From Puniceicoccaceae bacterium (lineage in GTDB: Bacteria; Verrucomicrobiota; Verrucomicrobiia; Opitutales; Coraliomargaritaceae), in contig SKFT01000002.1 in the NCBI GenBank assembly GCA_007117865.1, positions 1 through 48,208 on the forward strand: 48,208 nucleotides of DNA. Direction: 5' to 3'. How positions within the stretch are numbered: position 1 is the stretch's first letter; each line of letters begins with the position of its first letter. The notes under the pieces were generated by a model. It did no database searches. It was not told where the DNA came from and was given only the letters and a program-made list of their open reading frames with translations. Positions 8,579 to 11,750 of the stretch are shown in pieces. The translations under genes and the position numbers were made by a program.

Positions 8579-9607
8579 TTAGTTGTAAGATGCCTGAGCA
8601 CCCTTGAGGTTGCGCTTCTTAATCCAAGGCATCAAGCCACGCAAACGCTGACCGGTCTTTTCAATCGGATGCTTTTCGCCTTCCGCGAGGATGCGCTTGT
8701 AGTTGGGCAAGCCGTCTTGGTGCTCCTTAACCCATTCGCGGGTGAACTTGCCGCTCTGAATTTCCTTGAGGATCTTCTGCATCGACTTTTTGGTCTGTGC
8801 GGTAATGACGCGGGGACCACGGGTGATATCGCCGTATTTAGCTGTTTCAGAGATCGAGAAGCGCATGCCGGAGATGCCGCTTTCCACCATCAAATCGACG
8901 ATCAGTTTGAGCTCATGCAAGCACTCGAAATAGGCCATTTCCGGTTGGTAACCGGCTTCCACCAAAACTTCAAAGCCTGTGCGGACCAGCTCGCTGGCTC
9001 CACCGCAAAGCACTGCCTGCTCACCAAATAAGTCGGTTTCCGTTTCTTCTTTAAAGGTGGTTTCGAGGACTCCCGCGCGGGTTCCGCCTATGCCCTTTGC
9101 CCAAGCCAGTGCGACCTGCTTGGCTTTACCGCTGGCGTTGTTGTGGATGGCAATCAGTGCCGGTACGCCCTTGCCTTCCAGGTATTGGGCGCGAACGATG
9201 TGGCCGGGTCCCTTGGGAGCTACCATAATCACGTCGACGTCCTTTGGGGCTTCGATCAAGCCAAAGTGAATGCACAAGCCATGGGTGAAGAGAAGCGTCT
9301 TGCCTGCCGTGAGATTGGGTGCGATATCCTTTTGGTAAACGCTGGCCTGGACCATGTCTGGCACCGCTAGCATGATGACGTCAGCCTTCTGAACTGCCTC
9401 GGCAGTTGGATAAACTTCAAAACCCTGTTCTTTGGCAACCTTTACGGATTTGCTCTTCGGGTAGAGGCCAATAATTACGTTTAGCCCGCTATCTTTCAGA
9501 TTGAGGGCGTGCGCGTGGCCTTGTGAACCGTAGCCGATGACGGCAAGGGTTTTCTTTTTAATAGACGCAAGATTGGCGTCTTTGTCGGTATGGACTTTTG
9601 CTGGCAT
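8579..9607 (-). CDS. ilvC: Ketol-acid reductoisomerase
   Basis: [17 protein letters not shown] and [22 protein letters not shown] motifs. Confidence 0.97.
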
Positions 9608-10560: not shown

Positions 10561-11466
10561 ATGACTGCCAATAAGGAGCCCATTCGTTTCTACAACCCGT
10601 CTACTGGGCAAGTTGAAACGGAGCATGTCTATGGCGAAGGCTACCTGCGGTGGGCTTATGAAAATCCAATGGGGCGCCTGTCCACCCGTGCTTTGATACA
10701 GCGGGCATGGTTCTCGCAGTGGTATGGCTGGCGCATGAATCGCCCCGCCAGCGTGAGCCGTATTCGTCCCTTTATAGAGCATTACGGCGTTGATGAAGGT
10801 GAATTTGCAGAGCCCGCTGATTCCTATACCAGTTTCAATGAATTTTTCTACCGCCGAATCAAGCCGTCGGCACGTCCGATTGATACCGATCCGGCAAGTG
10901 TGGTTTTCCCCGCGGATGGACGTCATTTGGCGATACCTTCAGTGGACGAAACCAGCATGTTTTATTGCAAGGGACAGCGTTTTGACTTGGCCAGCTTTAT
11001 TGGCGATGCTGATTTGGCAAAGCGTTTTAGTGGCGGCAGCCTGCTTATTTCACGATTGTGTCCGGTTGATTACCACCGCTTTCATTTCCCCTACTCCGGA
11101 CGGGTAGGGAGTTCGCATCTCATTGCAGGCGGACTGCGCTCGGTCAGTCCAATCGCCCTGCGCCGCAATTTGTCTATCCTGTGGCAAAATCGGCGTCAGC
11201 GCACTTTGCTGACCTTGTCCGATGGTAGCGAAATGCTCATTGTGGAAGTGGGTGCAACGTGTGTTGGCCGCATCCACCAAACTTTCAAGCAGGGCAGTGA
11301 GATAAGCAAGGGGGCTGAAAAAGGTTACTTTGCCTTTGGTGGCGCTTGTGTGGTAACCGTTTTTCAGCCCCGTAAGATAGCGTTTACCGAAGCCTTGCTG
11401 GAGCATTCCGGCAAGGGATTGGAAACCTACGCAAAGATGGGCGAGGTCGCCGCTAGGCTTGTGTGA
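10561..11466 (+). CDS. psd: Phosphatidylserine decarboxylase homologue with variant cleavage motif (GGAC)
   Basis: [49 protein letters not shown] align to bacterial PSDs, but the pyruvoyl Ser position is Ala. Confidence 0.9.
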
Positions 11467-11692: not shown

Positions 11693-11714
11693 ACGGTAAT
11701 CTGGCCAGTCCCCC

Positions 11715-11750
11715 GTCACCAGTCCCTAGTCACCAGTCCCTAGTCCCTTA
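11715..11750. repeat. Short tandem repeat (gtcaccagtcccta)x2 plus partial gtccctta
   Basis: 11715-11728 and 11729-11742 identical, followed by a partial unit. Confidence 0.85.

Follow-up and report, generated by a model that had tools for sequence, protein, structure and literature searches.

The window, by which we mean the whole 48,208-nucleotide stretch of DNA under analysis, contains on its forward strand, at positions 10561–11466, an ATG-initiated open reading frame (psd) for a phosphatidylserine decarboxylase (PSD) proenzyme of 301 amino acids that, as assembled, lacks the pyruvoyl-forming serine. The psd product matches the PF02666 profile across the entire catalytic domain (E = 5.2e-52, 177 bits; residues 92–295 against profile positions 1–194 of 198). 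Its best NCBIfam match is PRK00723 phosphatidylserine decarboxylase (6e-96; 321 bits, under the 371-bit cutoff of that family), and it scores 116.4 bits against TIGR00163, over the cutoff of 111.75. An AlphaFold2 model of the protein (pLDDT 88.0, pTM 0.88) has the PSD fold, and the top PDB matches that Foldseek returned for this model were all to E. coli PSD, with E values of about 1e-16. Judged by its sequence, then, the reading frame at 10561–11466 is a full-length PSD homologue.

The closest counterparts of the psd product are PRK00723-type PSDs of the Puniceicoccaceae/Opitutales and the Verrucomicrobiaceae, with which it shares 52–62% identity as well as length, fold, the Asp and His residues and the Gly-Gly that precedes the cleavage site; it differs from them in having Ala in place of the pyruvoyl-forming Ser, a substitution found in none of 117 relatives. 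With E. coli PSD (PDB 6l06 and 7cnw) it shares the fold (TM 0.75–0.77 by target length) and the equivalents of D90, D142, H144, H147 and G253, all of which are retained, whereas the LGST motif of the E. coli enzyme, which contains Ser254, is replaced by GGAC. Far more distant than E. coli PSD are the PSD-like L-tryptophan decarboxylase PsiD (PDB 8x4q and 8zia) and an Aspergillus arginine decarboxylase (9jer), which act on other substrates and share the superfamily fold with a weak sequence match (about 16–21% identity). Promoter and terminator scans around psd gave sites no more numerous than in shuffled sequence. Downstream of psd, the intergenic interval 11705–11748 holds a short imperfect tandem repeat with a 14-base, CCAGTCCCCAGTCA-like unit, the sole tandem array found in the window.

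The self-cleavage site of the psd product

An earlier note on this DNA had pointed to GGAC in place of a serine-bearing motif, and the deposited sequence bears this out: positions 11335–11352, which are codons 259–264 of psd, read ttt ggt ggc gct tgt gtg, or F-G-G-A-C-V. Instead of the Gly-Ser cleavage site of PSDs, the protein has Gly261-Ala262, with the self-cleavage and pyruvoyl site occupied by the Ala codon GCT (11344–11346). We aligned the protein with relatives taken from 57 related genomes and from GTDB contigs. The column of codon 262 contained Ser in 105 of 105 distinct relatives in a first alignment and in all 117 in a larger MAFFT alignment to which more distant members had been added. 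Neither alignment places a different Ser at the cleavage site, and no shifted alignment rescues one, because Gly260 and Gly261 (11338–11343), which precede the normal scissile bond, are intact, aligned and invariant (Gly-Gly in 117/117 relatives). The motif that the note had expected, GGST, needs correcting: in the local family it takes the form GGSC or GGSS, and GGAC is found in none of the relatives. Position 263 corresponds to Thr255 of the E. coli enzyme and is occupied here by Cys (TGT, 11347–11349). Of the 117 Ser262-bearing relatives, 54 likewise have Cys, 55 have Ser and the remaining 8 have something else, so that Cys is an ordinary residue at this position in the lineage.

An exact laboratory analogue of the Ala262 protein is available in the engineered S254A variant of E. 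coli PSD, in which self-cleavage is abolished and the enzyme does not mature (PMC7952604, PMC8138132). Since this substitution blocks self-cleavage, the Ala262 protein as written should, by analogy, be an inactive proenzyme. The deposited protein is, on the strength of its sequence, a PSD homologue that is not a competent PSD as written.

To look for the Ala form elsewhere, we searched 390 genomes from the phylum, a sample and not a census, with a DNA pattern for K-G-[YF]-F-x-F-G-G and then a codon for Ser (TCN) or for Ala (GCN); this pattern catches only PSDs of the same motif type. The Ser form was found in 89 of these genomes and the Ala form in 2, namely the source genome and G148, where the match (L261) is a chance one in a region without a readable psd. 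No other PSD with Ala at the pyruvoyl site was thus found in the 390-genome sample, and a literature search of partial coverage, judged by titles, found no natural Ser-less PSD.

Conservation of the remaining active site and of the psd branch

The catalytic Asp of PADG and the His residues of YHRFH, which the note had described as intact, are indeed present. Asp119 (10915–10917), the equivalent of E. coli Asp90, is Asp in 117/117 relatives, and Asp170, His172 and His175 of the VDYHRFH segment (11068–11085) are each conserved in 117/117; these last three are the equivalents of Asp142, His144 and His147, whose roles in E. coli PSD have been described (PMC7952604). The Asp and His residues of autocleavage are therefore all retained, and we found no frameshift, stop or decay of other catalytic residues in psd. 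When compared with 121 relatives, the psd product departs from the consensus at only one of 34 strictly invariant columns, and that departure is S262A; the substitution cannot be put down to a weakly conserved column, because codon 262 belongs to this small invariant set. For other genes of the same genome, compared with fewer relatives, the corresponding counts were 1/154 for ilvC, 1/64 for pss, 0/95 for trpS and 0/51 for hemC. Unusual residues at near-invariant columns of the psd product comprise L100I and G223S, together with D278A in one alignment; such changes are slightly more numerous than in most relatives, yet within the range that the relatives show.

In a protein tree, psd is sister to the psd of the related genome G005 with an SH-aLRT value of 88, which is under the 95 mark, and a tree of ilvC likewise joins the source genome to G005. 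The end branch of psd measures 0.44, as compared with 0.61 for its Ser-bearing sister from G005 (L015) and 0.50 for L025. We found no relaxed selection such as a dead gene would be expected to show, the branch being no longer than those of relatives and the invariant columns being kept. Constraint along the psd branch appears to have been about the same as along the branches of relatives, and any loss of the serine would therefore have to be recent. Separately, the ilvC gene of the window (8579–9607) shares 86% identity with its G005 counterpart and 72–80% with those of other relatives, unlike psd, which is about equally far (55–62%) from all family members, G005 included.

Retention of psd and pss in related genomes

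The source genome is a draft of 184 contigs that is 83% complete. The search that the note had proposed for a second psd and for pss turned up, in this 83% complete assembly, one PF02666 gene only, and a phosphatidylserine synthase gene in addition. The latter lies on another contig (G000:C136:3479–4039) as an intact open reading frame whose product, PssA, scores over the cutoff of TIGR00473 and has an intact CDP-alcohol phosphotransferase motif (DALDGRVARLG...EFDSIAD).

Among 56 related genomes, a strong psd and a strong pss were both present in 40 and both lacking in 10; the 6 discordant genomes were all less than 90% complete. In the 37 related genomes that are at least 90% complete, presence of the two genes agreed without exception (both in 32, neither in 5; Fisher p = 2.3e-6, a value that overstates independence because the genomes are related, although the coupling is nonetheless clear). 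Because psd and pss are kept or lost together, the retained pss predicts a working psd in the source genome. The genomes in which a close psd and a strong pss are both absent are G003, G006, G011, G016, G020, G023, G026, G029, G039 and G053. Seven genomes of a single genus (g4), of 0.7–1.4 Mb, are included in this paired absence, and part of the family has apparently lost PE synthesis by the PSD route.

Origin of the alanine codon

The note had left three readings side by side: an error in the sequence, a dead or repurposed PSD, and a Cys-derived pyruvoyl shifted by one residue. The first fits the context best and the last is disfavoured. We consider it probable that the Ala codon at 11344–11346 is a consensus error or a minor-allele call in a draft genome, and that psd itself is ordinary. 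This reading is the best supported because the gene is otherwise intact, its branch is not accelerated, pss is retained and no relative shares the Ala; it is favoured also because the codon is a single-base difference that falls directly after GGC, GCT being one base away from a Ser codon of the form TCN. GGC-related Illumina substitution errors were described by Nakamura et al. (cited in PMC4787001); in PMC4787001 itself, motifs ending in GG were the strongest, with preferential incorporation of G. The GGC context is only compatible with an error, and weak evidence for one, because Gly-Gly precedes the codon in every PSD and because the motif is an Illumina one that may not apply to the platform used for the source genome. 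Counting against an error are the other unusual residues of the protein (L100I, G223S and, in one alignment, D278A), of which it has slightly more than most relatives. Consensus errors in assemblies are, moreover, rare per base.

If the base is an error or a minor allele, the organism's psd would encode the usual Gly-Gly-Ser-Cys cleavage site, and the proenzyme would follow the normal route, cleaving itself between Gly261 and Ser262, whereupon Ser262 would become the pyruvoyl group; PS made by the genome's PssA would then be decarboxylated by PSD to PE. We infer that the functional allele has a different base from the one deposited. The case is most likely one of an ordinary psd that either carries an artefact at the level of one base or lost its function very recently, and not of a new enzyme type. 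In a draft assembly, one base is enough to give the appearance of a lost active site, and checks of pss/psd co-retention and of branch rate help in judging such apparent losses.

Second in rank, and possible if somewhat doubtful, is a recent inactivation in which the Ala is real and fixed; psd would then have become a pseudogene only very recently, and its product would remain an inactive proenzyme that does not cleave itself. The PSD route to PE would close, and PS would accumulate or PE would be obtained otherwise; the result would be a natural bacterium having PssA without a working PSD. The single PF02666 gene, the complete block to cleavage in E. coli S254A and the few further unusual residues of the psd product are consistent with such a knockout, as is the apparent dispensability of the PSD route in the order, where g4, G006, G039 and G053 are without a close psd and a strong pss. 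However, the genomes that lost the pathway lost psd and pss together, whereas the source genome has an intact pss, and psd shows neither a frameshift or stop nor an accelerated branch nor decay of its other catalytic residues. Were a second psd to sit in the 17% of the genome that the assembly lacks, the loss would be silent. The part of the note's proposal that stands is that the protein is dead as written; that it has long been dead, or long repurposed, is disfavoured.

It is quite improbable that the Ala is real and fixed in the lineage and that the protein either works without Ser, by way of Cys263, or is a Ser-less pseudo-PSD beside a retained PssA, in which event the cell would contain phosphatidylserine instead of PE. 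Repurposing, taken by itself, would mean that the uncleaved PSD fold persists in a lipid-binding or regulatory role, and we regard this as very unlikely: the fold and the other active-site residues are intact and the model is close to E. coli PSD, but there is a single such sequence and no conserved Ser-less clade, no paralogue holds the enzymatic role, and the pattern of conservation is that of an enzyme.

Pyruvoyl groups derived from Cys are found in glycine reductase and D-proline reductase, to which the sole likeness here is a Cys beside the expected site. An active PSD with a pyruvoyl derived from Cys263, in which the Ala262-Cys263 bond would be cut and H2S rather than water lost, is nevertheless the least credible reading, since Ala would precede the nucleophile (in E. 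coli PSD, G253A slows cleavage and G253P blocks it; PMC7952604), the other active-site residues show no compensating change, E. coli S254A shows no cleavage, though its neighbour there is Thr, and Cys263 did not arise as a replacement for Ser262, given the 54 Ser262-bearing relatives that have it too. In view of the same distribution, we reject Cys263 as a compensating novelty. An active enzyme with a genuine Ala at this site would derive its pyruvoyl cofactor from something other than the canonical Ser.
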